Assembly: GCA_018818065.1 (NCBI GenBank)
Contig: JAHISV010000005.1
Coordinates: 602,527 to 666,526 of the forward strand
Length of the DNA: 64,000 bases
Direction of reading: 5' to 3'
DNA from: Bacteroidota bacterium
GTDB lineage: Bacteria > Bacteroidota > Ignavibacteria > Ignavibacteriales > Melioribacteraceae
The notes under the pieces are model-generated. The model saw nothing but the letters and a program-made list of their open reading frames with translations, was not told the DNA's origin and searched no databases. This document shows positions 4,941-64,000 of the stretch, in pieces (position 1 is the stretch's first letter; the number at the start of each line of letters is the position of its first letter). A program made the translations under genes and the position numbers.

Positions 4941-6641
4941 ATGTTAGCCAGAGCTTTTAGATTAGCAATGCCATGCCCGGTGAGAATATTCACGGTTATT
5001 TCAGTTCTTTTTGTTTTCACTCTTAGGGCTTTTGCTCAAGCTACTCCCACTGTGGGGTTGCTAACCTATGATGAAAGGGCTGCTGATGGCTACACATTAT
5101 TTGCTCCTCTTACTTCTAACATCACTTTTCTTATAAATAATGAAGGTAACCTTGTTCACAGCTGGCAGGGTACTGCTCGTCCTGGCAATTCCGTCTATTT
5201 TTTGGAAAACGGCAATTTGCTGAGAACCGAAATTGTGCTTAATGAAACCATGACAGCCGGGGGCGAGGGTGGAAAGGTAATTGAGCAGGACTGGGAGGGA
5301 AATATAATATGGAGTTTCACTTACAACAACGATAAGGTTCGGTCACACCACGATGTTGAGTATTTGCCCAATGGAAATATCCTCATGATTGCCTGGGAGT
5401 ATAAAACCTATGATGAGGCAATTGCAGCCGGAAGAAAGCCAACCATGTTGAGTGATAACGAGTTATGGCCCGATCACGTAATAGAAGTGGATCCTTCAAC
5501 AAATGAAATAGTCTGGGAATGGCATGTTTGGAACCATCTTATTCAGGATTATGACCCGACTAAACTTAACTATGGAGTAGTCGCTGACCATCCTGGGTTG
5601 ATTAATTTGAACTACAAAGACGGCGTGGAACCAAACACGGGAGGCGCTGACTGGAATCATACAAACGGTATTGATTACAATGAAGAGTTTGACCAGATTT
5701 TATTAAGTGTACATGGATTCAGTGAGATTTGGATAATTGACCACAGCACAACTACCGAAGAGGCTGCAGGTCATTCAGGTGGAATTTATGGCAATGGCGG
5801 CGACCTGTTGTATCGATGGGGAAACCCTGAAGCGTATGACCATGGAACTGCTAACGATCAAAAACTTTATCAACAGCATAACGCCCATTGGATTGAGGCG
5901 GGATTGTCAGGCGAAGGGAATATTCTGATCTTTAATAATGGCAAGGGTAGACTGGATGGTGACTATTCATCTATTGAAGAAATTACCCCGCCACAAATAA
6001 ATGGTGCTTACCCATACACAGTTGGCGAAAGTTATGGACCGGAGGGCACGGAGTGGAATTACAGTAATCCGGGGACTTTCTTTGCCGATCACATTTCCGG
6101 TGCGCAGCGCCAGTTGAATGGTAATACGCTAATCTGCGAGGGAACCACCGGAACATTTTTCGAGGTAACCGAAAACGGAGCTTTGGTGTGGGAATATGTT
6201 AACCCGATTGCGCAAAGCGGCGCACTAACACAGGGCGATACACCAACACAAAATAGTGTATTCAGGGCATATCGTTATTCAGAAGATTATCCCGGATTTG
6301 CGGGTAAAGACCTAACGCCCGGTAATCCTCTTGAGATTTATAATACCACAGTACTTGAAAGCGGGGAGGGCTTGCCAACGGATTTTGTCCTATTTCAGAA
6401 TTTCCCAAACCCTTTTAATCCTTCAACGAAAATTTCATTTGCTTTGCCTAATCCGGGCAATGTGACAGTGGACATTTTTAATATACTTGGTGAATTGGTT
6501 GAGAATCTTGTTAGTGATTTTCTTCTGGCCGGGAATTACATCTTTAACTGGAATGCAGAAGAATTGCCGAGTGGAATTTATCTCTATTCACTTGAAGCAG
6601 CAGGTTATCGGGAAATTAAAAAGATGACCCTTATGAAATGA
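4941..6641 (+). CDS. Arylsulfotransferase (ASST)-like protein with T9SS sorting domain
   Basis: 566-residue secreted protein. A signal peptide ends near FTLRAFAQA. Residues about 40-460 form the repeated beta-propeller of the arylsulfotransferase family, with recurrent blades (GNLVHSW, GNILMIAWE, DQILLSVHGFSEIWIIDH, RWGNPEAYDHG, GNTLICEGT) and His-rich loops (SHHDVEYLPNG, QQHNAHWIE). ASST enzymes move sulfate between phenols, but many relatives lack proven activity. Residues about 480-566 are a type IX secretion C-terminal domain (NFPNPFNPSTKISFALP to KKMTLMK), so the mature protein should be exported through T9SS and anchored or released. This sorting domain has no palindromic insert. The SD region GAGAGG (4927-4932) could pair with CCTCTC (4897-4902), which may mask it. 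Confidence 0.85.
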   Translation: MLARAFRLAMPCPVRIFTVISVLFVFTLRAFAQATPTVGLLTYDERAADGYTLFAPLTSNITFLINNEGNLVHSWQGTARPGNSVYFLENGNLLRTEIVLNETMTAGGEGGKVIEQDWEGNIIWSFTYNNDKVRSHHDVEYLPNGNILMIAWEYKTYDEAIAAGRKPTMLSDNELWPDHVIEVDPSTNEIVWEWHVWNHLIQDYDPTKLNYGVVADHPGLINLNYKDGVEPNTGGADWNHTNGIDYNEEFDQILLSVHGFSEIWIIDHSTTTEEAAGHSGGIYGNGGDLLYRWGNPEAYDHGTANDQKLYQQHNAHWIEAGLSGEGNILIFNNGKGRLDGDYSSIEEITPPQINGAYPYTVGESYGPEGTEWNYSNPGTFFADHISGAQRQLNGNTLICEGTTGTFFEVTENGALVWEYVNPIAQSGALTQGDTPTQNSVFRAYRYSEDYPGFAGKDLTPGNPLEIYNTTVLESGEGLPTDFVLFQNFPNPFNPSTKISFALPNPGNVTVDIFNILGELVENLVSDFLLAGNYIFNWNAEELPSGIYLYSLEAAGYREIKKMTLMK

Positions 6642-8380: not shown

Positions 8381-9370
8381 TTACTTTAATAGCAACATTT
8401 TCCCGCTTCTTTGAAAAAAAGTGCTTGTACCGCTAGATGGATTTACTCTCAATTGGTAAAAGTAGACTCCACTGGAGACATGTTTTCCATGTTGGTCTGT
8501 ACCGTTCCATGTTATCTGGTGCTGCCCGACTGTCTGGTTAGTAGCCGAAGATGACCATACCTCCTCACCATTCGAATTATAAATGAGAAAACTTATATCT
8601 GCATGTGAAGGAAGCGAATAGAGAATATTCGTTGATGGATTAAATGGATTTGGGTAGGGTGGACTTACCTTGAAGTTTTCAATTATATCCATTTCTTCAA
8701 CGCCCACAACATAAACATCTGCATACTGTACATTAGGGCTGTATTCAACATAGTTGAACAGGTTTGTGGAATTCAGAACTGTCCTGATACTATCCAGGGA
8801 ATGGCCGGCAACATCCCATTCGTCACTTATTTTATTTAGAATGTCATAACTTACAGAAGAGAGTTTTGTGATTGAAAAGTTTTGTCTTAGGGAATCAACT
8901 GCAACTGAATCACTTTTATAATATCCAACATGAATGACTCCACCATAATATTTTGGAGCTTGAAAAAAAGTTGTATCAGATAATCCAGGGAAGAGTGTGT
9001 GAAAACCGACAATTTTGTTAAGACCATTTGTCTTTGGTAATCCATATATTCTTGGGTCAATAATCCACTTGTATACTCTCTCGTTACCTGGTTGGAAAAT
9101 AATTTCTAAATAAGTCGGCAAACTTGCGCCAAAATCTAATGAATTAAAACCATTCCATATAAAACCTGCATGATTGGAATCATAACTCCCTGACCAAATT
9201 GATATGGTCGAATCACTGGTGTTCTTTACCTTGCAGAATATGGTAATCTCTTCGCCATATGCATATTCCTGCTTATCGGTAAGGATCTTCAATTCAAATT
9301 GAGAATAGACTGGAGTAGTAACAGAAATCAATAAAACAACAAAAGTAAGTGCAGAAAATAAATTTTTCAT
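8381..9370 (-). CDS. Secreted BsuPI-like domain protein with T9SS sorting domain
   Basis: 329-residue protein with a signal peptide (ending near TTPVYSQ). The N-terminal part (FELKILTDKQEYAYGEEITIFCKV) resembles a BsuPI/Ig-like beta-sandwich of the kind found in intracellular proteinase inhibitor domains. The middle has no clear family. The C-terminal about 90 residues are a T9SS/FlgD-Ig-like sorting domain (PYPNPFNPSTNILYSLP, GQHQITWNGTDQHGKHVSSGVY, ending KMLLLK). Its loop after the LP strand is short (SHAD), without an insert. Function unknown; export through T9SS is inferred. Confidence 0.7.
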   Translation of the reverse strand: MKNLFSALTFVVLLISVTTPVYSQFELKILTDKQEYAYGEEITIFCKVKNTSDSTISIWSGSYDSNHAGFIWNGFNSLDFGASLPTYLEIIFQPGNERVYKWIIDPRIYGLPKTNGLNKIVGFHTLFPGLSDTTFFQAPKYYGGVIHVGYYKSDSVAVDSLRQNFSITKLSSVSYDILNKISDEWDVAGHSLDSIRTVLNSTNLFNYVEYSPNVQYADVYVVGVEEMDIIENFKVSPPYPNPFNPSTNILYSLPSHADISFLIYNSNGEEVWSSSATNQTVGQHQITWNGTDQHGKHVSSGVYFYQLRVNPSSGTSTFFQRSGKMLLLK

Positions 9371-40637: not shown

Positions 40638-43600
40638 TTATCTTAGCAGAACCATTTTTTTAGAAACTGAAAAATTACCTGCTCTAAGTATATAAATATA
40701 GATGCCAGATGACCTGTCCCCCGCGTTCCATGTTCGTTCGTAGTAACCAGGTGACTGAGGGCCATTCTGCAAGTTGGCTACTTCGTTGCCGAGGAGGTCG
40801 TACACTTTTAGCGAAACCAGCACTTCGACACAGCTAAGTGCATCGACTACGGGTATTTGATAACGGATAATAGTCGAAGGGTTGAATGGATTCGGGTAGT
40901 TTTGTGATAACTGAATGTTTGTCGGAATTCCATTATCGTCGTCTATGCCTGTCGAACTAGGCTGAACATAAACAGATAGTATCTCGCTGGTAAACCCAAG
41001 GTCCTTATCCAGAACGAAAACTGTTAGTTCCGCCCATCCTGAAAAACCGTATCTGGCTGATAGTGTAAGTATATTTGTGTCCCGATTATAATCAGCCTGT
41101 AATGAATCAGGTTTCGCAATGAAACCTATTGCCAACAGGTTTTTAGGCGTTTCCACATCCTCAATGTTTAATAAAAGAGTCCGGCTTGTTCCGGGTTCAA
41201 TTGTTATAGATTGATCCGGAATGCCTGTAATAACCGGCAGATCATTTATACTCTCAACATTAACAGGAACTAGTTGAGAACTGCTGAATTCACCGTCACT
41301 AATAGTGACATTGAGGAATGCATTCCCAAAATAGTTCGCATCAGGAACAATTGTACAGATATTATTATAAACCGGAGAAATACTAATAGCAGGTTCTTCA
41401 ATTGAAAGATCGTAAATTAGTAAATGGTCGGGAGTTTCAGCATCGGATATAAAACTATACCATGTGGTTAAATCGAGAGTATAGGTTTCGTCTTCCATAA
41501 GTTGTATGGAAGGTAGTTGCGCTATTACCGGTGGTTCATTAGTTCCAACGATTGTAATATTAAAATCATATTCCTGGGAAGTTGCTCCGTCTTCATCCTC
41601 CAGAGTAAAAATGAATTTATCGTATGTTACTTCAGAACCATTATGAGTATATGTAACTCTATTATTAGCAAGATCTTCCTGTGTAAAGGATGAAACTTCT
41701 ATCCTGTCAGTTTTCATGAGGAAACTGCCTTTGCTTAAGGTGCCGTAAGCAGGGCTATGAACAATATTATAAGTTACAGAATAATCGGAGCCATCAGGGT
41801 CGTTGGCTTTAAGAATGGAATTGGATAATGTATATGTTCCTCCTTCGGTTACCGAAATGCCCCTGTTTATGTATATATAGGGCGCCTGGTTGATGGACGC
41901 AGATACATTAATGTTCATGTTATATTGAGCGGTGGAGAACTCGTTACTGCTATCTTTTACTTTGAATTTGAAAGTGGCATATGGGGAACCTGTTTTATCC
42001 GGTTCAGGTGTAAACATTAATTTTCTTACATCGTCGCATATTGTGTTTGTTGCCACGGCAGCCCCATTGTATCTTAAATCGCCTGCCGATTCTGTTTGTG
42101 TTATCTGAATTCCTGCAAATGTGTGCCCGTCAACATCAATAAATGTGAAATCAGAAACCGAAAAAATATAAGGTGCTGACCGGGCAATTGTAACGCTATT
42201 GTTAATGCCGGCAGGAGGGTCATTTACCTGTTCAACATTTATTGTTATTGAATAGTAAGAGGTACTATATTCTGTTCCATCGTGAACCTTAAAATTGAAT
42301 AGCGTGTAAGGCGCACCAAAACCATTTTGGTCAGGTTTGAATTTTAATTGTCTGTTATCTAGATCAGCTTTGGTAATCACTCCATCCTGAAAGATTAACT
42401 CACTATTGGTTATAATTCCATCTTTATTCTTATCATTATATAAGGTGCCTTTTTGTGGGAATGCCGTAATCTGAATTTGCTGCATTGGGCTGTTTTCTTT
42501 ATCTGTGTAGTTGAATTCGGATGTGCTAAAAGTCTTTTGGGTATCCTCATCAATTGTAAATGAGTTACTGCCAGCCAATGGTGGCGTATTATATCCTGTT
42601 ACATTTATAGTGACTGTGCCTTCGTTACCAAAAATATCGAAACTATTTTTGGCTTTAAACCTGAATGAAGCGTAGTTTGAGCCGGTGTCGTTAGGGACAG
42701 GTATGAATAAGAGTTTGTCAAGATCCGGATAATAAACATCTTTAATAACATCGTTGCCATCGTAAAGAAGAAAACCATTTGTTTCAAGAGAGGTTATATT
42801 AATTCCTTGGGGAGTTCCATAGGCAGGGTCATTAAATGCAAAGTCTTCAACAGAAAACGTGTAGGTTTCGTTTTGTAGAATGGAGATGGCAAAATCATCA
42901 CTTATTATAAGTGGAGGCATTGTGTAGAGGAATACCTGCCCATTGCCCGGGTAGTTTGGAGCACCAACCATAAAGTCGGGTTGAGTGTCATTATTAAAGT
43001 CACCAACATAGGCAACAGATCTGCCAAACTTGGCTCCTTGAAGTTCAGTTCCCATACTTATATCCGGACTGGAATTCATTAATGATCCTGACTCTCCGAA
43101 ATAAGCATAGGCATACTCGTTCAAAGAATTGTAAAAGCCCGTGCCAATAAGTAAATCACCAACTCCATCATTATTCAAATCATCACTATCAGAAAGGGAA
43201 GTGCCAAAGTATGTGCCGCTTTCCCCGGTGAGGATAATATCAGCAATATTATTCATTGTGTTGCTTGGGGCACCAAGGTAAATGTATACTCTGCCTTTGT
43301 CAGCATTATAATTACTGCTGGTGACCATAACATCGTGGTATGCATCATTGTTTATATCGCCCGCTCCTGAAACAGTCATTCCGAAATAGTCGGATGAGTT
43401 TTCTCCGGTCATTGTTACATCCGCGATAGTGTTCATTGAACTGCCCCCGAAGAACAGATAAGCGCGTCCTTTAAAATTACTGTATCCCTCTGCGCCAACA
43501 ATAACATCATCAAAATTATCATTATTCACATCTCCGGCGGAAGAGACAGATGTTCCAAAACGAATAGCAGTTGACTCTCCCGTTAGTGTCACATCGACTG

Positions 43601-45437
43601 TACTATTCATAGATGACCCACCGTAATAAATATATGCACGTCCGGTATTCCCACTATATCCATATGCGCCAACTATTACGTCGTCATAGCCATCATTGTT
43701 TACATCACCAGCCGGGGAAACAGATTTACCAAAAAAGTCACCAATACCCGTACCGGTTAAAGTTACATCTGCATTGCTGTTCATTGAAGACCCACCGTAA
43801 TAAATATATGCTCTTCCTCTGCCCGTATTGTAATTATATGCTCCAACTATCACATCGTCATAACCATCATTATTTACATCTCCTGCTGTGGCTACAGAAT
43901 AACCAAAATAACTTTCCTCTGATTCGCCGGTTAGTACAAGGTCCACGTTATTATTGGGTGTTGAGCTGTTTGAACCAAAGTAGATATATGCACGTCCTGT
44001 ATAATTATTGTATTTTGGAGCGCCAATAATTATATCATCAATACCATCGTTGTTTATATCTCCTGCGCCAGAAATCGAAGTCCCGAACTGATTCCCAAAT
44101 CCAGCATCTCCTGTAATTGTAAGACCAACATTTATATCGAAGGTTGATGCACCTTTATAAATATAGGTTTTCCCAAGTCCCTTACTATAATTTGAAGCCC
44201 CGACAATTATGTCATCAAATCCATCGTTATTTAAGTCGCCCGCTGATGAAACTGAAACTGAAAATTTATCATATGTGTTTTCCCCTGTAAGTGTTCCATC
44301 GGAAATATTATCCATAGTGACCCCAGTGGCACCATAATATATTTTTGCAAAGCCAGTTTCAAAATTGTTCGATTCGGCTCCGATGATGATATCAGTGAAC
44401 CCATCGTTGTTTAAATCGCCAGCAGATGAAACCTGGCTGCCGAAGTTATCATTTGCATTGTCGCCAGTTATTACTACATCTGCAATGTTGTTTAACGAAG
44501 CTCCGCCCATATAAATGTATGCCCGACCTTTGGCGCTTTCGTATTTAGCAGCTCCAATTATAAAATCGGAGTAGTTATCATTATTAACGAATCCTGCAGA
44601 GGAAACAGAGTTGCCAAATTCGTTCCCGGTATTTTCCCCGGTCATTGTCAGGGCGGCAGCATTATTCATAGATGTGCCGCTTGCTCCAAGAAAAATATAT
44701 GCACGGCCTGTGTTTGAGCTATAACCTGGCGCTCCAACAATTACATCAGAGTAACCATCATTATTCACATCACCTGCTGATGAAACAGAATATCCAAATT
44801 TTTCATAGTCTGATAGTCCGGTCATTTTCACATCAGCAATACTATTCATACTGCTTCCGCCAAAATAAATATATGCGGTCCCTTTCAGGGTATTGCCATA
44901 TGCTCCAACTATTACGTCATCGTATCCGTCGTTATTAACATCGCCAGCTCCGGAAACAGAATACCCTAAAAACTCCCATTGATACTCGCCAGTAAGAATT
45001 ATGTCGGGGTCAGCATTAAGGCTCCCCTGCGAAGATCCGAAATAAATGTATGCTCTTCCTTTGTTATTTTCGTATCCGGGGGCTCCAACAATTACATCGT
45101 CATATCCATCGTTATTCACGTCACCTGCTGAAGAAACCGACGTGCCAAATTCATCAAAGAACCCCTCCGCGCTAAGAGTAAGATCTACACCACTATTAAG
45201 AATTGATCCTCCCAGGTATATATATGCCCGCCCTTCTTTTGAATTATAAGCTGGTGCTCCAACAATAAAATCATCAAAGCCATCATTATTCACATCTCCG
45301 GCGGAAGAAACTGATTTGCCGAATTCAGAATCGCCCAGACTGTTTATCTCAGAAAAAGTCTGGAGTTTTTCAGCCTGAGCAAATAATTGTAATGAAGTAA
45401 TAAGACTAATTATCGTAAAGTAAATCAAGTATTTCAT
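40638..45437 (-). CDS. FG-GAP/cadherin-like surface protein with T9SS sorting domain
   Basis: 1599-residue secreted protein. Signal peptide (IISLITSLQLFAQA), then 14 FG-GAP repeats of about 60-65 residues (GDVNNDGYDDVIVGAPGY type, Ca-binding D-x-N-x-D-G loops) forming one or two beta-propellers up to about residue 840. Then several Ig-like/cadherin-like modules (about 850-1500: TPPLAGSNSFTIDEDTQKTFS, NDPPAGINNSVTIARS, NQAPYIYINRGISVTEGG, NEPPVIAQLPSIQLMEDE), and a T9SS sorting domain (NYPNPFNPSTIIRYQIP to KKMVLLR). The sorting domain carries an 11-residue loop insert, VVDALSCVEVL, encoded by a palindromic element. Probably an adhesin. Confidence 0.9.
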   Translation of the reverse strand: MKYLIYFTIISLITSLQLFAQAEKLQTFSEINSLGDSEFGKSVSSAGDVNNDGFDDFIVGAPAYNSKEGRAYIYLGGSILNSGVDLTLSAEGFFDEFGTSVSSAGDVNNDGYDDVIVGAPGYENNKGRAYIYFGSSQGSLNADPDIILTGEYQWEFLGYSVSGAGDVNNDGYDDVIVGAYGNTLKGTAYIYFGGSSMNSIADVKMTGLSDYEKFGYSVSSAGDVNNDGYSDVIVGAPGYSSNTGRAYIFLGASGTSMNNAAALTMTGENTGNEFGNSVSSAGFVNNDNYSDFIIGAAKYESAKGRAYIYMGGASLNNIADVVITGDNANDNFGSQVSSAGDLNNDGFTDIIIGAESNNFETGFAKIYYGATGVTMDNISDGTLTGENTYDKFSVSVSSAGDLNNDGFDDIIVGASNYSKGLGKTYIYKGASTFDINVGLTITGDAGFGNQFGTSISGAGDINNDGIDDIIIGAPKYNNYTGRAYIYFGSNSSTPNNNVDLVLTGESEESYFGYSVATAGDVNNDGYDDVIVGAYNYNTGRGRAYIYYGGSSMNSNADVTLTGTGIGDFFGKSVSPAGDVNNDGYDDVIVGAYGYSGNTGRAYIYYGGSSMNSTVDVTLTGESTAIRFGTSVSSAGDVNNDNFDDVIVGAEGYSNFKGRAYLFFGGSSMNTIADVTMTGENSSDYFGMTVSGAGDINNDAYHDVMVTSSNYNADKGRVYIYLGAPSNTMNNIADIILTGESGTYFGTSLSDSDDLNNDGVGDLLIGTGFYNSLNEYAYAYFGESGSLMNSSPDISMGTELQGAKFGRSVAYVGDFNNDTQPDFMVGAPNYPGNGQVFLYTMPPLIISDDFAISILQNETYTFSVEDFAFNDPAYGTPQGINITSLETNGFLLYDGNDVIKDVYYPDLDKLLFIPVPNDTGSNYASFRFKAKNSFDIFGNEGTVTINVTGYNTPPLAGSNSFTIDEDTQKTFSTSEFNYTDKENSPMQQIQITAFPQKGTLYNDKNKDGIITNSELIFQDGVITKADLDNRQLKFKPDQNGFGAPYTLFNFKVHDGTEYSTSYYSITINVEQVNDPPAGINNSVTIARSAPYIFSVSDFTFIDVDGHTFAGIQITQTESAGDLRYNGAAVATNTICDDVRKLMFTPEPDKTGSPYATFKFKVKDSSNEFSTAQYNMNINVSASINQAPYIYINRGISVTEGGTYTLSNSILKANDPDGSDYSVTYNIVHSPAYGTLSKGSFLMKTDRIEVSSFTQEDLANNRVTYTHNGSEVTYDKFIFTLEDEDGATSQEYDFNITIVGTNEPPVIAQLPSIQLMEDETYTLDLTTWYSFISDAETPDHLLIYDLSIEEPAISISPVYNNICTIVPDANYFGNAFLNVTISDGEFSSSQLVPVNVESINDLPVITGIPDQSITIEPGTSRTLLLNIEDVETPKNLLAIGFIAKPDSLQADYNRDTNILTLSARYGFSGWAELTVFVLDKDLGFTSEILSVYVQPSSTGIDDDNGIPTNIQLSQNYPNPFNPSTIIRYQIPVVDALSCVEVLVSLKVYDLLGNEVANLQNGPQSPGYYERTWNAGDRSSGIYIYILRAGNFSVSKKMVLLR
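40820..40841 (-). repeat. Palindromic element in the sorting domain of the FG-GAP gene
   Basis: GCACTT-CGACACAGCT-AAGTGC, a 6-bp inverted repeat in frame. It encodes part of VVDALSCVEVL between IIRYQIP and VSLKVYDLLGN. Uninterrupted sorting domains in this window have only about four residues here (NPGN, SHAD), so the insert is about 7 residues (21 bases). Confidence 0.65.
42930..45340 (-). repeat. Tandem FG-GAP coding repeats
   Basis: 14 units of about 180-200 bases in the FG-GAP gene, each encoding GDxNNDGxDDxIVGAxxY plus GRAYIYxGG. The unit sequences vary at DNA level, so this is an old amplification kept in register, not a fresh expansion. Confidence 0.9.
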
Positions 45438-53219: not shown

Positions 53220-53393
53220 ATGATTCAGGATATACTTGTGTTTTTGATAATAAGTGGAACAGTTTTAATAAATGTCTTTTACTTTGCCAAGAGCTTAAAG
53301 GTAGGGGACGCAAATTCTGCGTCCCCTAAAAACAAATGTGGTGGATGCACGGGATGTGATTTATCGAAAGCGATAGAATCGAACAACCAATAG
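53220..53393 (+). CDS. FeoB-associated Cys-rich membrane protein, split by a palindrome
   Basis: 57-residue protein starting at an ATG 12 bases after feoAB. One membrane helix (QDILVFLIISGTVLINVFYF), then a linker and the Cys motif CGGCTGCDL (Cys40, 43, 46) typical of FeoB-associated Cys-rich proteins (FeoC-like), ending IESNNQ. The linker VGDANSASP is encoded by a perfect 11-bp inverted repeat at 53302-53328. The insert of about 9 residues is in frame and keeps the protein intact. Probably a small FeoB partner. Confidence 0.88.
   Translation: MIQDILVFLIISGTVLINVFYFAKSLKVGDANSASPKNKCGGCTGCDLSKAIESNNQ
53302..53328 (+). repeat. In-frame palindromic element in the FeoB partner
   Basis: TAGGGGACGCA (53302-53312), loop AATTC, TGCGTCCCCTA (53318-53328). 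Perfect 11-bp arms. Its ends TAGGGGAC are close to those of the sorting-domain element at 59479 (GTAGCGGAC/GTCCCTAC). It is far more GC-rich than its gene. Confidence 0.85.
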
Positions 53394-57254: not shown

Positions 57255-57710
57255 CTATTTTAACAAAATCATCTTACGTGATTCAATAAAACTACCAGCT
57301 CTTAATAGGTATAAATATATTCCAGAAGATACATTCCCCGCATTCCATGTGCGTTCGTAGTACCCTGGTGACTGTGGGCCGTCCTGTAAAGTGGAAACGA
57401 GGTTACCTAGTAAATCAAAGATCCTCAGCGTCACAATTGGACTGTCACTCCGGGCTTGGTCCGGAGTCTGCCCGTTTAGATGCTGAAACGAGTTCAGCAT
57501 GACATTACTGGGAATAGCATACCGAATGGTAGTTGAGGGATTAAACGGATTCGGGTAATTCTGTGATAACTCGTAATCTGTTGGTATTCCGTTCAAGTCA
57601 TTGATCCCTGTCGGATCTGGAGTAACAGTTATTGTAACTACAGTTTCATCTGTTCCGCCATCCGCGTCAGTGACTGTAACAGTTAATTCAACGTTACCGT
57701 CAAAAGATTC
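57255..57710 (-). pseudogene. Truncated adhesin tail with T9SS sorting domain
   Basis: Remnant of a gene like the 59295 adhesin. The frame reads ESFDGNVELTVTVTDADGG, then DPTGINDLNGIPTDYEL and a full sorting domain (NYPNPFNPSTTIRYAIP to SRKMILLK). It is aligned with the tail of the giant adhesin (DSFTGNVTLTITVTDEQGG) but has no start: upstream of about 57710 it changes to an unrelated poly-A/T stretch (AGAGACGGAGAAAG plus nine A; 57719-57741) and meets a stop near 57775. Carries a 25-residue loop insert. Probably the 3' end left after a deletion or recombination. Confidence 0.75.
57443..57504 (-). repeat. Composite palindromic element in the sorting-domain remnant
   Basis: About 62 bases with TGTCA/TGACA ends. 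It holds ACTCCGG-7-CCGGAGT (57447-57467) and ATGCTGAA-5-TTCAGCAT (57480-57500). It encodes most of the 25-residue loop (NVMLNSFQHLNGQTP, DQARSDSPI) between the RYAIP and VTLRIFDLLGN strands; about 21 residues (63 bases) more than uninterrupted domains. Confidence 0.8.
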
Positions 57711-57794
57711 TTTCGCGGAGAGACGGAGAAAGAAAAAAAAAGCGAAAATTAATTCGCCCTTGTAGATCTCTAATATCTAAAATCTAACGGCTTG

Positions 57795-58889
57795 CTACTT
57801 GAGCAGAATCATCTTGCGACGTTCAATGTAAGTTCCCGCTCTTAATACATACAGATATATCCCTGATGCCACGTTCCCCGCATTCCATGTGCGTTCGTAA
57901 TATCCGGGTGATTGAGAACCATCCTGCAAGGTTGCTACAAGGTTGCCGAGGATGTCGTATATATATAATGAAACATTTGTAGCGGACAGGGCCGTGCCAG
58001 AGGCAGGTGAAACATGCCGTGTCCCTACAGACGATGGAATGCCGTAACGGATAACAGTCGATGGATTAAACGGATTCGGGTAGTTGTTATCCAGAAATAT
58101 TTTATTCGGGAGTGTCTTTTGGATATTTATATAAGTTACAAGGTTCCATGTGACTAAATCATTCAATACAGTTTCTGAAGCGAGATTTTGAAGGTAATAT
58201 GCCTCTTTAGCAGATAGCATACTATGATAGGTGTTCTCTGAAAGCCTCTCTCCAAATATTGTAGAGTAGAAAACACATGCCCCTATATATGAACCACGTA
58301 AAGCCGGGTGTGCTCCATCTGCGGCGAATAATACTATATCGTTTTTTTCAGCTCTTGCCGTCTTCCATGCCCAGCCTACCGGTGCAATCTGAAGATTAAG
58401 CTGGTTGGCAATGTAAAGTGTACCTGTGTAGATTTTGTTCATATATTCTTCGTATGAATAGTTACCCTCATTTGGAATTTCAACTCCATCTTCTAATCCA
58501 AAAACCATTTGGTAAATGACCTTTGACTCACTATGATTACTTCTTATACCAGCTAAAAGTTTGTTAATACAATTTATCTCGATGTTATACATGTCATCAA
58601 AGGCAGTTATATCGTCGGATTGCAGTATAACGTAATCCCACTGTTTTTGATTTATTTTTGTGTAGATGTCAGATGAATTAGCATGGGCACGGAGTGAAAC
58701 ACCTGGAAGCGTCCACGTATCTACTTCTAAATTTTTCCCCTCAGCGCTTGCAAGTTCAACCAACATACCCGGTAAATTATTTGAATATGTAAGACTATTC
58801 CCGATGAATAAAACTTCTGTTTGATTTTGCGCAAAGATGGTTGTTGTGATTAAATATATTAACAGGAAGGTCTTACTCAAAAGTGTCAT
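57795..58889 (-). CDS. SGNH-hydrolase-like protein with T9SS sorting domain
   Basis: 364 residues: signal peptide (FLLIYLITTTIFAQ), an SGNH/GDSL-like hydrolase (about 22-250) with block I IGNSLTYSNNLPG (nucleophile Ser), YVILQSDD, and block V DGAHPALRGSY (Asp, His), then a T9SS sorting domain (NYPNPFNPSTVIRYGIP to RKMILLK). Probably a secreted esterase or deacetylase acting on a polysaccharide. The sorting domain shares a 50-base identical run with the giant adhesin and carries the longest version of the same palindrome, with a nested 21-base insert. Confidence 0.85.
   Translation of the reverse strand: MTLLSKTFLLIYLITTTIFAQNQTEVLFIGNSLTYSNNLPGMLVELASAEGKNLEVDTWTLPGVSLRAHANSSDIYTKINQKQWDYVILQSDDITAFDDMYNIEINCINKLLAGIRSNHSESKVIYQMVFGLEDGVEIPNEGNYSYEEYMNKIYTGTLYIANQLNLQIAPVGWAWKTARAEKNDIVLFAADGAHPALRGSYIGACVFYSTIFGERLSENTYHSMLSAKEAYYLQNLASETVLNDLVTWNLVTYINIQKTLPNKIFLDNNYPNPFNPSTVIRYGIPSSVGTRHVSPASGTALSATNVSLYIYDILGNLVATLQDGSQSPGYYERTWNAGNVASGIYLYVLRAGTYIERRKMILLK
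57979..58028 (-). repeat. Nested palindromic element in the SGNH gene
   Basis: The same element as at 59479-59507 (GTAGCGGACAGGGC ... GTCCCTAC) but with 21 extra bases (57993-58013) at its centre, encoding seven additional residues (loop SSVGTRHVSPASGTALSATN against SSVGTGHALSATN). The total of 50 bases is 29 plus 21, and the frame is kept. Confidence 0.75.
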
Positions 58890-59294
58890 ATATAATATTC
58901 CATGAATCAGTTATTATTTTTTGTCGGTGAAATGGATGTTTTATAATAATAAAATAAAAAGGCAGGAGGTGATATTTTAATTAAGCGGTGAGATGGTCAT
59001 ATTAAACGGACGATATTTTTAATGAATGACTAAAGAACGCTTAGCGTCAGGTAAAAAATGAAGAAATGTCGGGACAAAAAAGTCGATGCTGCAAATATTG
59101 CTTGATTTGTTTTAAATGGTACTGTTTCAATAAAATTATCTGAAAGACTTTTTTTTCTGGGAATAAAATAATTCCGATTATATTTCTGGCTACTCTACAA
59201 AAATTTTTCTTGTCGATAATTTCTTTGAAGCCGGAAGAATTGAAAAAAAGCGGATATTAATCCGTCCCATTTTTTTCTCAATTCTTACAGATAT
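58890..59294. other. 405-base intergenic region
   Basis: Between the SGNH gene start and the adhesin stop (both minus). No frame, RNA gene or repeat recognised apart from the short terminator at 59243-59264. Confidence 0.6.
59243..59264 (-). terminator. Short terminator of the giant adhesin gene
   Basis: On the minus strand CGGAT-TAAT-ATCCG (59264-59251) followed by C and seven T. The stem is only 5 bp. Confidence 0.5.
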
Positions 59295-62200
59295 CTATTT
59301 TAATAAGATCATTTTGCGGCTTTCAACATAGCTATCTGCTCTTAACACGCATAAGTAAATTCCTGATGAAACGTTACTTGCGTTCCATGTCCGGTCGTAA
59401 TATCCGGGTGATTGCGGACCATCCTGCAGAGCGGCAACAAGATTGCCGAGGATGTCGTATATATATAATGAAACATTTGTAGCGGACAGGGCATGCCCTG
59501 TCCCTACGGACGATGGAATGCCGTAGCGGATTATTGTCGAAGGATTAAACGGATTCGGGTAGTTCTGATATAATGTGATTTGAGTTGGTATTTCGTCAGA
59601 CTTTTCCATTCCTGTTGGGTTAGATGTAACTGTTATAATAATGAATCCACTTGCCGTGCCGCCCTGTTCGTCTGTAACTGTAATTGTCAGTGTTACATTA
59701 CCTGTAAATGAATCCACCGGAAGCAGCGTTAAAACACCTGATTTTGCTTTATAGTTGACATAAACAGAATCGGGGGATATTTCGAAGCTTAGAATAAGTA
59801 AACTATCTGGCGACTCGACATCACTTATGCATGAACATAACTCAATTGATTTGGTTGAACCGCTTGCAATGGTAAGTTCCGCTGGTAAACCGCTTATTTC
59901 GGGTATATCATTAACTGCTGCAATCGTTAGACTGATATCAGTTTCACAGGTTAATTCGCCGTCGCTGATTATTACATGCAGAAGAGCAGTCCCGAAATAA
60001 TTTTCCAGGGTTGTTATTGTGTAGTGTTTATTATCATTAGAGTTAAAAAATATATTTTCATTGTTACAGGAAATACTAAATGATAATGTGGAATCAGCAT
60101 TGTCAGGATCGGTTATTTGATCATACCAGTCAATTACGCTAATCGAATAAGGAATATCTTCGAACATATTAATTGAAGCCAGTGATGAAACTGTAGGTGC
60201 ATCGTTTTTGCCTGTTATGGTTATAATGAAAACTTTCTCCGTACTTGTATTTCCGTAAGCATCTGAAATAGTAAACTTTATGCTGTCTGACTCCGCCTCA
60301 CTTCCATCATGAATATATTGAACATTTCCCTCCAGAAGATCTGTGTGAGAAAATGAAAGTGTTTCCATGGAAGATTTATATAATTGACTTGTACTCACAA
60401 TTAAGAATCCATGCCTGGGCAATTGAGTAACATTATATACAAGCGAAGATGTATCACTATTAGCATCGTGTGCAGATAATAAACTAGTTGTTAAGGTGAG
60501 AATTCCACCTTCACTGAGTGAGCCGCCGGTATTAACGTTAATAACCGGTACGCTTATACCTGAACCGACTTTAACATTGAATGTAGTTTCTGTAAACAGA
60601 CCGCCTGTATCTGTTGCTCTGATAGTGATATCCGATAAGCCGTTTGTGGAAAGTCCGTAATCAATAACTAATGTAGTGCCGGATATAAACAAAGAAGTAA
60701 ATAACCCCGCGTTTGAGATATTCTTTATTGTGTAATCTAGTCCTGCAGAACCGTCATCAGCGTCGTCGAAGGAAAGTGTTAAGTCAATAACTGTGTTTTC
60801 GGCACCTGTGTCAACTTCAACATTGGCAATCCCCGAAGTAGTTGGAGTGCTGTTTAATACTACTTCTACCCTTGATATCTCACTTGTTGCAGATCCTACT
60901 CCTGAAGCATCACAAATACTGAAATCTATAAACCGTGTAGCTAGCGAGGGCGAAATGGAGTTTGTGTTCTTATATGAAAGCTCCCTGAGCAAGGAATTAA
61001 CCCGTGCCAAAGTTGAGTTAGCGTTAAAAGTAATAACCAGGTCATTTCCGTTCTTACCATCCGATGTTATAGTGCCAACTAAAACGGCTTCAATAAAAAC
61101 GTCACTTCCGTTTATCATTCCTGCGCTTAATGTAACAGAACCCGAAGTATTAATCGCTAGGTCGTCCTCTGCTGCCTGTAATCCGGAAGAAATAGAAACC
61201 GTTAGATTACCTGAATTGAAGGTTGGTGAATCCTGATCACTAACCGTAGCGTTAGATCCTTTATCCAGAAGTAACGCGGTACCTCTTATATAGTTCTGGG
61301 AATCACCATTTAGATTTGAAATTACTGGTGGATTTTGAGTTACGGTAACAGTTAGTAAAGCAGTGTCCGCTGAATTGCCTCCATTGAGATTTCCATCCCC
61401 ATCATCTAAAGTTAAGGTAAAATTTCTGTCACCAACACCTGCCGGGACTGAATACATTAAATTATTTAGTAAATACCCTATTCGGGTTAAAGTAGAATTC
61501 GCATCGAATGTAATTATTAAATCATTCCCCGCCTGTCCATTGTCGGGGTTGTTTACTGTTCCAACAATAATTCCGTATACTGAGATTGATTCTTCCGAGT
61601 CAATAACACTATCAGAACCGGATTTTACAATTACGCCGTCAACCTTCCATGATCCGTTTGTTGTTCCAGAGGTTTGAACAATTGAAATACTTCCGCCATC
61701 GCTGTTAGGCGAGTCGGGATTTGTAACTGTTGCACTTGATACAACATCTATGTTCGAGGCTGAGCCGCCGGCAATGATAAAAGAATTATCCCCACTAAGA
61801 TTTGAAATAACCGGGGGTTCGTTTATAGGTTTAACATTTATGATGGAGGTTATACCCGGTGAACCGGTATCCGATCCGTTAGCAGATCCGCCATCATCCT
61901 TAAGTGAAACTATTGTGATAACTCTTTCAACTGAGCCGGGATTGTTACTGGTGTTTTGGTAAGTTATCCCATCAATAATACTTTGTGTTACCGCCGCAGT
62001 AATTCCTCCAACTTTCGAAACCTTAACAGTTGCTGTCGAACCCGAAGAAACTATCTCAATTGTCATTCCATTGCCGGATGTAACAAGAGAGTTGCTGTTT
62101 GTAAGTGTGAAAGAGTTTCCATCGATAGAGAGGTATTCGCTATTTCCGTCCGCAACATTTTGGATAGTTAATGTAAATTCCAAAATATTCTGACCAGGTT

Positions 62201-64000
62201 CTTCTGTAGAAACCGTAATGGTTGAAAACAAATCAACGGCAGCGCCGCCTTCTGTAAAATCAGGATCATCTCCTGTGGCTGTTAAAGTGGGAGGATAATT
62301 AATATCTGCCACAGTTATCTGAACAGAATCACTGGCGGTTGAAAATGCGGAACCAAGTATAGTGTTCACACTGATTGTGCCATTTGATCCTCCCGATGTT
62401 CTATCCCATCCCTTAAAATTGATTGCTTCCTCAACAAAACCGGAAATTCCATTATCCGGTTTATAATACAACCTTGTAATGTCGTCGGCAAATAGTAAGA
62501 GTGCACTTGTTTCGCTTACTACTCCGGTTAGCTCTGTCCAAACCGTTCCGTTGTCGAGTGAATACCAGAGAGTTCCCTGAACATTTACATCAGTAACGGC
62601 TAAGCCGGGTGAATCATTATCATTGTCGGAAAAATTATTTATTATATCACCGCCGCCAAAGCCGCCGCCCACATTAATAATTTCCGAAACCAGGGTTGAG
62701 TAAACTGTTGATCCATTTACCGGATCGCCTATGTCCTCTGGGACGCCATTAAATTCCGGTGCCTTTCCGTTATCTAATACAGGAGCGTCATTAACGCCTA
62801 TAATTGACACAAGGGTGCTGTCTAGAAATGCTGTAGAATCGGCACCGCCGTTTGCTCTCCCACCGTCATCTTTCACGGAATAAATAACTATTTTACGGTC
62901 AGATGTTTTTATGGCAGTACTTGTATTTTTATAAGTCATGTTATCAATAATATCCTGAACAACAGCAGAGGAAAATCCTGTGCCACCTGAAATTGTATCT
63001 ATTAAGGTAACATAAGTCCAAGTATCCGAAGTATCCCTGTTAGTAACCAACACGTGAATGTTGTTGTTTGTTGTTGTAAGGGAATCGCCAATCCCCAATC
63101 CCACATCACTTCCGTCAATATTAAGTATTTCATCCATACTGTTTGATACATTGTTGAGACGGAAAATTAATTCAATAACATTCTGACCAGCCTCAACTGT
63201 AGAGAAAGTAACCCCCGAAAAAAGATCAACTGCAGGATCGCCCTCTGTAAAAGTAGGGTCATTGGCGGTTGCAGTTAGTGCTGGCGCATCATTAATATCA
63301 GTGATGTTAATTGAAATATTGTCAGTTGCAGTCGAAAAAGAAGTGCCAATCGTTGTGTTTACGGTTAATGCTCCGTTTGCATCCCCTGAAGTTCTGTCCC
63401 AGGCTTTAAATACTACTGCATCACCGATTATTCCGCTCACGTTCGTATTTGGCTTAAAGTATATCCTTGCGTTGGCAAAAAGAACAAGCGCACTTGTTTC
63501 ACTTATTACACCGGTCAGCTCCGCCCAGTTTGTGCCGCCATTCAAAGTGTACCATATAGACCCTGAGTTAACATCTGTAATAGCAATGCCGGGTAAATCA
63601 CCCTCGGCATCGTAATAATTGTCATATGTACCGCCTATATCAATAACGTCGGAAACGAGTAAGGAGTTGTTGGTTGACCCATCAGTAGGATTTTCCTGAT
63701 CTTCAAAAATATCTGTAAATGCAGGAGAGGCAGTATTATCAAGAACCGGCGCATCATTAGCAGCAACCACTGTTATCGTTGAAGCGGTGTTTAGAGCACT
63801 TGTATCAGTTCCGCCGTCACTAGTTCCGCCATTATCTTTTACAGATGTTAAAGTTACAACACGGTTGCTTGTATTTGGTGTATCATTCTCATTTCTGTAA
63901 GTTATTCCATCAACAAGTGTCTGTATTGCTGCTCCGCTGATCCCACCAGCCTTTGAAATGGTAACCGTTGCCGTTGCAGCAACAACACTAACTGTTACAG
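59295..64000 (-). CDS. Giant adhesin-like protein with cadherin-like repeats and T9SS sorting domain (5' end outside window)
   Basis: Open reading frame runs from the stop at 59295 through the right edge without a stop, giving about 1568 residues here and more outside; an apparent GTG/Met at 63770 is internal. The sequence is tandem Ig/cadherin-like modules of about 160-190 residues (units with DGITYxNTS, RxVTIxSxKDNGGxxNG and NDAPxL/NEPPVI junctions), then three or so other Ig-like units (NDAPTVSSLASINMFED, NDIPEISGLPAELTIAS), and a T9SS sorting domain (NYPNPFNPSTIIRYGIP to RKMILLK). Probably a surface adhesin or biofilm protein. Its sorting domain carries a 20-bp perfect palindrome. Confidence 0.9.
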   Translation of the reverse strand, partial: VTVSVVAATATVTISKAGGISGAAIQTLVDGITYRNENDTPNTSNRVVTLTSVKDNGGTSDGGTDTSALNTASTITVVAANDAPVLDNTASPAFTDIFEDQENPTDGSTNNSLLVSDVIDIGGTYDNYYDAEGDLPGIAITDVNSGSIWYTLNGGTNWAELTGVISETSALVLFANARIYFKPNTNVSGIIGDAVVFKAWDRTSGDANGALTVNTTIGTSFSTATDNISINITDINDAPALTATANDPTFTEGDPAVDLFSGVTFSTVEAGQNVIELIFRLNNVSNSMDEILNIDGSDVGLGIGDSLTTTNNNIHVLVTNRDTSDTWTYVTLIDTISGGTGFSSAVVQDIIDNMTYKNTSTAIKTSDRKIVIYSVKDDGGRANGGADSTAFLDSTLVSIIGVNDAPVLDNGKAPEFNGVPEDIGDPVNGSTVYSTLVSEIINVGGGFGGGDIINNFSDNDNDSPGLAVTDVNVQGTLWYSLDNGTVWTELTGVVSETSALLLFADDITRLYYKPDNGISGFVEEAINFKGWDRTSGGSNGTISVNTILGSAFSTASDSVQITVADINYPPTLTATGDDPDFTEGGAAVDLFSTITVSTEEPGQNILEFTLTIQNVADGNSEYLSIDGNSFTLTNSNSLVTSGNGMTIEIVSSGSTATVKVSKVGGITAAVTQSIIDGITYQNTSNNPGSVERVITIVSLKDDGGSANGSDTGSPGITSIINVKPINEPPVISNLSGDNSFIIAGGSASNIDVVSSATVTNPDSPNSDGGSISIVQTSGTTNGSWKVDGVIVKSGSDSVIDSEESISVYGIIVGTVNNPDNGQAGNDLIITFDANSTLTRIGYLLNNLMYSVPAGVGDRNFTLTLDDGDGNLNGGNSADTALLTVTVTQNPPVISNLNGDSQNYIRGTALLLDKGSNATVSDQDSPTFNSGNLTVSISSGLQAAEDDLAINTSGSVTLSAGMINGSDVFIEAVLVGTITSDGKNGNDLVITFNANSTLARVNSLLRELSYKNTNSISPSLATRFIDFSICDASGVGSATSEISRVEVVLNSTPTTSGIANVEVDTGAENTVIDLTLSFDDADDGSAGLDYTIKNISNAGLFTSLFISGTTLVIDYGLSTNGLSDITIRATDTGGLFTETTFNVKVGSGISVPVINVNTGGSLSEGGILTLTTSLLSAHDANSDTSSLVYNVTQLPRHGFLIVSTSQLYKSSMETLSFSHTDLLEGNVQYIHDGSEAESDSIKFTISDAYGNTSTEKVFIITITGKNDAPTVSSLASINMFEDIPYSISVIDWYDQITDPDNADSTLSFSISCNNENIFFNSNDNKHYTITTLENYFGTALLHVIISDGELTCETDISLTIAAVNDIPEISGLPAELTIASGSTKSIELCSCISDVESPDSLLILSFEISPDSVYVNYKAKSGVLTLLPVDSFTGNVTLTITVTDEQGGTASGFIIITVTSNPTGMEKSDEIPTQITLYQNYPNPFNPSTIIRYGIPSSVGTGHALSATNVSLYIYDILGNLVAALQDGPQSPGYYDRTWNASNVSSGIYLCVLRADSYVESRKMILLK
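59479..59507 (-). repeat. 29-base palindromic element in the adhesin sorting domain
   Basis: The core GGACAGGGCATGCCCTGTCC (59484-59503) is a perfect 20-bp palindrome; GTAG/CTAC extend it on both sides with one extra C on one arm. It encodes part of SSVGTGHALSATN, about 9 residues more than in sorting domains without insert. Confidence 0.85.

Follow-up and report, generated by a model that had tools for sequence, protein, structure and literature searches.

Palindromes lying in frame within proteins have been known since Rickettsia, as scattered curiosities. The GTAG-tagged REPs are mostly intergenic and near the 3' ends of genes, with some copies in frame in coding regions (Di Nocera 2013, PMC3733652). 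The 'double-foot' REPs of TnpA_REP subclass 2.4 are, in the relevant sections of Quentin 2018 (PMC6006769), frequent in Bacteroidetes and lie in frame in the transposase gene itself, between the HUH and Y motifs. Here we describe palindromes that lie in frame in T9SS C-terminal domains (CTDs), the tags that direct proteins to the surface of these bacteria, within a window of 64,000 nucleotides from a member of the Melioribacteraceae (assembly GCA_018818065.1, contig JAHISV010000005.1, positions 602,527 to 666,526).

Like the REPs of Di Nocera, the palindromes in the window include short GTAG palindromes, some of them in frame. However, those REPs occur in various host genes, many of replication and repair, and mostly at different sites, whereas the palindromes described here occur in one secretion domain, at the same loop, in many genera. 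With the subclass 2.4 REPs the CTD elements have in common the GTAG...CTAC ends and the in-frame copies, but the relevant sections of Quentin 2018 (PMC6006769) treat insertion into the transposase gene and are silent on sorting domains. Rickettsia palindromic elements (RPEs; Ogata 2002; Claverie and Ogata 2003, as described in PMC3733652) are likewise palindromes in frame in proteins, and are set apart by that description as other families, with a CGTC tag in RPE-4 and RPE-6 and with many unrelated host genes. The likeness to Rickettsia drawn in an earlier sequence-only reading of the window is apt for the in-frame position. The closest kin of the elements themselves are GTAG 'double-foot' REPs and GTCA hairpins, with RPEs proper further off. 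REPINs (PMC3116915) are resembled by the element of the 57255 gene and by long copies in genome G150, which also look like doublets of opposite hairpins, but the copy number here is low and the elements lie inside coding sequence. The 57255 element does not qualify as a REPIN, as the two hairpins of the doublet are unlike each other and the first is found at only six genomic places. Among open-licence papers, we found no report of palindromes or of a hot spot in T9SS domains. In-frame REPs as such are already known.

We re-read the six T9SS CTDs of the window and found a lengthened β2–β3 loop in four of them. In the empty sister CTDs, nine residues lead from the conserved P that ends β2 to the YD or FD after β3 (example IPEQTDVTLRVYD); the corresponding counts are 16 in the 40638 gene, 18 in 59295, 25 in 57795 and 30 in 57255. 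The excess of +21, +27, +48 and +63 nt, respectively, confirms that the loops differ by multiples of three at one place, as had been claimed. The two window CTDs with an empty loop belong to the proteins at 4941..6641 on the plus strand (NPGN) and 8381..9370 on the minus strand (SHAD). The window CTDs are T9SS type-A sorting domains by the Por_Secre_tail profile (TIGR04183/PF18962) and by the translocon, the SprA gene being intact in this genome (1002 bits); the filled CTDs score at or slightly under the PF18962 curated cut-off. Among the 87 TIGR04183 matches of the genome, the four long loops of the window are exceptional. When about 80 other CTDs of the genome were aligned, the β2–β3 loop was nearly constant and none of these CTDs showed a convincing palindrome there. 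Five loci (L048, L063, L066, L083 and L085) hold CTDs with a few extra residues and unconvincing palindromes.

We folded the loops as single-stranded DNA and compared them with dinucleotide shuffles. The CTD of the gene at 59295..63770 (59295..59582, minus strand; IPSSVGTGHALSATNVSLYIYD) holds a GTAG...CTAC palindrome at 59479..59507 (minus strand), similar to a 'double-foot' REP, which reads VGTGHALSA(T) in frame and folds with a z of -4.8. Its sequence, GTAGGGACAGGGCATGCCCTGTCCgCTAC, has the GTAG...CTAC ends and one extra base, and its relatives are perfect. The CTD at 57255..57560 (minus strand) lies in an incomplete gene (ORF at window 57255-57800), which is all that is left, at the 3' end, of a broken cadherin-like gene. 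Its loop holds a doublet whose two hairpins are oppositely oriented (GTCATGCTGAAC..GTTTCAGCATCT / AGACTCCGG..CCGGAGTGAC) at 57444..57503 (minus strand), reading VMLNSFQHLNGQTPDQARSD, with a z of -3.3 for the two hairpins. In the CTD at 57795..58085 (minus strand) of the gene at 57795..58889, which encodes a DUF4886 protein with a PF18962 tail, we found a longer and partly decayed palindrome of the GTAG type at 57979..58028 (minus strand; z -1.95, degenerate). The flanking and junction bases of this insert are identical to those of the 59295 insert, and it is a decayed relative of that element. The CTD at 40638..40901 (minus strand) of the FG-GAP/cadherin protein at 40638..45437 has a weak inverted repeat, GCACTTAGCTGTGTCGAAGTGC, at 40820..40841 (minus strand; z -1.54), and 17 of 200 shuffles fold equally well. 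This palindrome amounts to a six-base stem with one relative elsewhere in the genome at 1 mismatch (C6:34664, within a hairpin cluster), and is probably a decayed hairpin element. The earlier statement that each long loop is made of inverted-repeat DNA therefore holds strongly for 59295 and 57255, while the palindrome is decayed in 57795 and weak in 40638.

Elements of the GTAG type and of the GTCA type were found again between genes elsewhere in the genome, and empty sites exist in the short-looped sister CTDs, which are paralogues; both findings support the earlier interpretation. The 59295 palindrome has two intergenic relatives in its own genome (C13:592735 and C13:425727). The first hairpin of 57255 recurs at five other places, all intergenic in the stretches read; three of these places match exactly or bear one T/C variant, a fourth has 1 mismatch and the fifth has 2. 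The intergenic copies of both often stand directly after a stop codon. Dispersed intergenic GTAG copies also number 5 in genome G113 and about 18 in G079. In the copies read, the bases directly before the GTCA hairpin are TG or TTG, and not C as in the CGTC tag of RPEs; we know of no transposase for this type. Six of the strong palindromes of the window are intergenic, and only the 59295 element lies inside a gene. We rejected a general excess of palindromes in coding DNA, since the genes of the window hold one strong palindrome and the 89 kb of upstream coding sequence used as a control hold none. One of the intergenic palindromes, TAGGGGACGCA-aattc-TGCGTCCCCTA at window 53302-53328, is similar to hairpins near the RAYT gene of L037 (C15), which suggests that the genome has a second REP family. 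An intergenic stretch of L089 (G000:C6:32900-36000, about 1540-1900) also holds a tandem cluster of several unlike hairpin elements (TCATGCTGAAC.., GTCATTCCGGCGCATGCCGGAATC, ATCCTGAG..CTCAGGAT).

We then scanned 391 genomes of the class for the pattern GTAGGGRC followed at 30–60 nt by codons for YDxLG. The pattern matched in 26 of the 391 genomes, against scattered single hits for the controls, and reading of the matched loci removed about five chance hits and left about 21 true cases. An in-frame GTAG palindrome in the β2–β3 loop of a CTD was thus found in about 20 genera from at least seven families; where a named scan applies, the positive genomes carry names such as Melioribacteraceae and Ignavibacteria. 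These elements include near-perfect 28-nt palindromes that match intergenic copies, and the cores differ among genera (AAGTCGCGACTT, AACTCATGAGTT, AATTCATGAATT, GAACGGCCGTTC and others). Hairpins of the GTCA type occupy the same loop in genome G349. This agrees with the earlier claim of palindromes in frame at one tolerant loop and extends it to other elements in other genera. With in-frame palindromes recurring there in about 20 genera, the β2–β3 loop looks like a place within genes where mobile DNA can land safely again and again. About 94% of the genomes are empty, and most CTDs are empty in the positive genomes as well (about 9 of 132 filled in G113). Occurrence throughout the CTDs of a genome was rejected, the top-scoring CTDs of G311, G113, G278 and G106 being mostly empty. 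Two loci were set aside: L187, from the named scan, is not a CTD, and L277, considered as an insertion disrupting a CTD, is an uninformative CTD remnant. A strict DNA target site was not supported, as the position varies by 0–4 codons at the left junction and by 1–7 at the right one; the sole DNA preference at the junction is a pyrimidine before GTAG.

In family f21 (genomes G311, G285 and G317), palindromes were found in two loops of the same domain. The β2–β3 loop was significantly palindromic in 30 of 31 CTDs examined, a fraction that applies to loci chosen for holding a GTAG palindrome and not to whole genomes, and the β4–β5 loop in 27 of 31, with several unrelated palindromes in the β4–β5 loop alone. 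These double-loop CTDs are a subfamily, because the 27 top-scoring CTDs of G311 hold no palindrome in either loop. Together, 57 of 62 loops were significantly palindromic versus 1 of 30 upstream control stretches. This count, and the match of near-perfect elements to intergenic copies in so many genera, make it scarcely credible that the long loops reflect ordinary length variation with chance palindromes. The weak 40638 repeat and the decayed 57795 insert do fit such a reading, but for 59295, 57255 and the relatives it is already refuted.

We tallied the placement of 78 GTAG palindromes in the genomes with a CTD case, without conditioning on CTD context and reading manually from the printed list, as the automated labels are coarser. 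Of these, 32 were intergenic and 46 in genes: 37 in CTD loops (36 in β2–β3 and 1 in β4–β5), 4 in a domain before the CTD, 4 in RAYT genes and 1 in hsdM. Among the genomes of the order that were not picked for a CTD case, nearly all in-gene copies lay in RAYT genes. The pre-CTD copies belong to four T9SS-type genes of G079 (L141, L147, L148 and L152), where the palindrome lies in frame in the domain directly before the CTD, reading GFE..R[VGTTHELSLQ or VGTSRDLSLQ]WE..GFVEG. The hsdM copy (L136:61-1470, G333) lies in frame in a type I restriction-modification methylase, HsdM (KHN[VGAIHELPLQ]TKK), the only ordinary gene, neither cargo nor RAYT, seen with a GTAG palindrome.

All CTD cases are read in phase 0 (GTA GGG), in 20 of 20 genera, giving VG(T/A)xxx...L, and a second reading frame is also open in the CTD-loop elements. 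One copy in G311 starts one base off and ends in the same phase. In RAYT genes both phases are used, in 7 and 3 lineages (Fisher p 0.03 versus the CTDs, a descriptive value since the genomes are mutually related). This phase bias points to a filter on the peptide rather than to a DNA target alone, although the same uniform phase would follow if several genera had inherited a single old insertion. The perfect frame and phase and the use of two separate loops also speak against the hairpins being kept for an RNA role near the 3' ends of cargo genes, such as attenuation or mRNA stability, with coding incidental. REPs are common at gene 3' ends (PMC3733652) and the CTD is the last part of its gene, but the decayed hairpins of 57795 and 40638 are still in frame, and intergenic copies directly downstream of stop codons would do the same job; we consider an RNA role very improbable.

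The restriction to phase 0 would also be expected if the palindromes were kept for varying the sorting loop, with the peptides changing CTD recognition or anchoring and their exchange acting as an engine of diversity. That a single genome can hold unlike cores at homologous loops (G285, G311 and G113) fits this as well. However, the best-known recognition motifs of CTDs, Lβ3β4 and the C-terminus (PMC11285876), lie elsewhere, and by strand order the β2–β3 and β4–β5 loops would face away from them. In the AlphaFold model of the 57255 CTD (mean pLDDT 87.5), the insert lies between strands 7–14 and 40–47 and is modelled with low confidence, and the Foldseek matches of the model, with weak E-values, include CTDs of T9SS substrates and PorZ. 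Moreover, most CTDs in the same genomes have no insert, one-sided decay in the loops of G311 looks like drift, and 57255 is a gene remnant. We therefore regard a role in sorting variation as unlikely. The earlier proposal that the elements diversify the sorting signal draws its sole support from the variety of the inserts itself.

By their ends, the GTAG palindromes of the CTDs would be classed as 'double-foot' REPs of RAYT transposases. In G079, a 28-nt element within a RAYT gene is identical to intergenic copies, and its core is also found in a CTD of the same genome. Among the RAYTs of the window's own genome, none holds the palindrome of the window CTDs, which counts against movement by RAYT; RAYT L038 holds a different GTAG palindrome. 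That locus (L038:1453-2067, G000:C4) is a RAYT-like Y1 transposase gene with the palindrome in frame (SVGEGSPLPYV) and another just upstream. RAYT genes with an in-frame GTAG palindrome were also seen in about ten other genomes (L126, L134, L151, L123, L260, L265, L268, L276, L295 and L313). In one of these (L265:1501, G393), several tandem VGTTH units precede the palindrome, which looks like repeated insertion or copying of the element.

We constructed a tree of the CTDs of the window's genome from 78 columns, with the loop removed. In this tree the four filled CTDs group together as a clade (SH-aLRT 93). The clade is joined, with an SH-aLRT of 95, by four CTDs that lack a palindromic loop, and three of these have the standard length. 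Three unrelated elements within a single CTD clade could mean that the loop was hit repeatedly, or that it was hit once and the element was exchanged later. The claim of at least three separate insertions in this genome is therefore not proven by these data, because the four filled CTDs form one clade and a single insertion with later exchange of elements fits as well. In a tree of 204 CTDs, which rests on few columns with many unresolved forks, the filled state needs 19 label changes versus 48–58 in shuffles, with only 1–2 changes inside any single genome. Filled CTDs thus cluster by genome and multiply within a lineage, and independent insertions are therefore far fewer than copies.

Within a genome, elements can be more alike than the coding sequence around them. 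In G113, whose CTDs carry two unlike cores at this loop, identity is 0.88 for the element versus 0.71 for the flank; the values are 0.97 versus 0.83 in G278 and 0.94 versus 0.80 in G150. This was not so in G311 and G285, where several cores share a loop. In G311, the cores GAACGGCCGTTC and GGGTTCTGAACC have in common a variant right arm, CTTAC, which suggests that the core was swapped inside a resident element. The net gain of the loop is often below one element of 28–30 nt (+9, +21), so loop residues must have been lost or replaced. The near-identical elements in more divergent flanks of paralogues (as in G113 and G278) and the core swaps that kept the outer arm would both be expected if the palindromes were DNA recombination sites that help CTDs to shuffle between cargo genes. 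However, CTDs without palindromes have spread too, and we find this explanation quite unlikely. There is also only a small chance that the CTD is a dedicated, exchangeable docking site, with two bottom-loop residents swapped in frame by recombination to give renewable variants of the sorting signal.

We consider it probable that mobile palindromes have inserted in frame in the CTD loop, where they were tolerated, spread by duplication and had their cores exchanged. Short palindromic mobile elements would insert in frame into the β2–β3 loop, and in some relatives also into β4–β5. The commonest kind would be the GTAG...CTAC 'double-foot' REP, presumably copied by RAYT-type Y1 transposases, alongside GTCA-type hairpins and others. 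Inserts may survive there since the loop sits on the rim of the β-sandwich, at a distance from what the secretion machinery reads. Ten extra residues would cost little there, because the CTD is cut off after export in the systems studied; this cleavage is established for P. gingivalis (PMC4560394) and is assumed here. Filled CTDs would then multiply through gene duplication, and one palindrome core may be replaced by another, presumably by recombination, with position and reading frame kept.

A single domain in which palindromes of unrelated sequence gather at one loop across many lineages turns such insertions into a testable question, namely whether the survival of a mobile element inside a gene is set by the site of insertion or by the tolerance of the protein. 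The filled loops are also natural insertion data that show where the T9SS signal can take up extra length, and they point to a possible route by which mobile DNA may add coding sequence.
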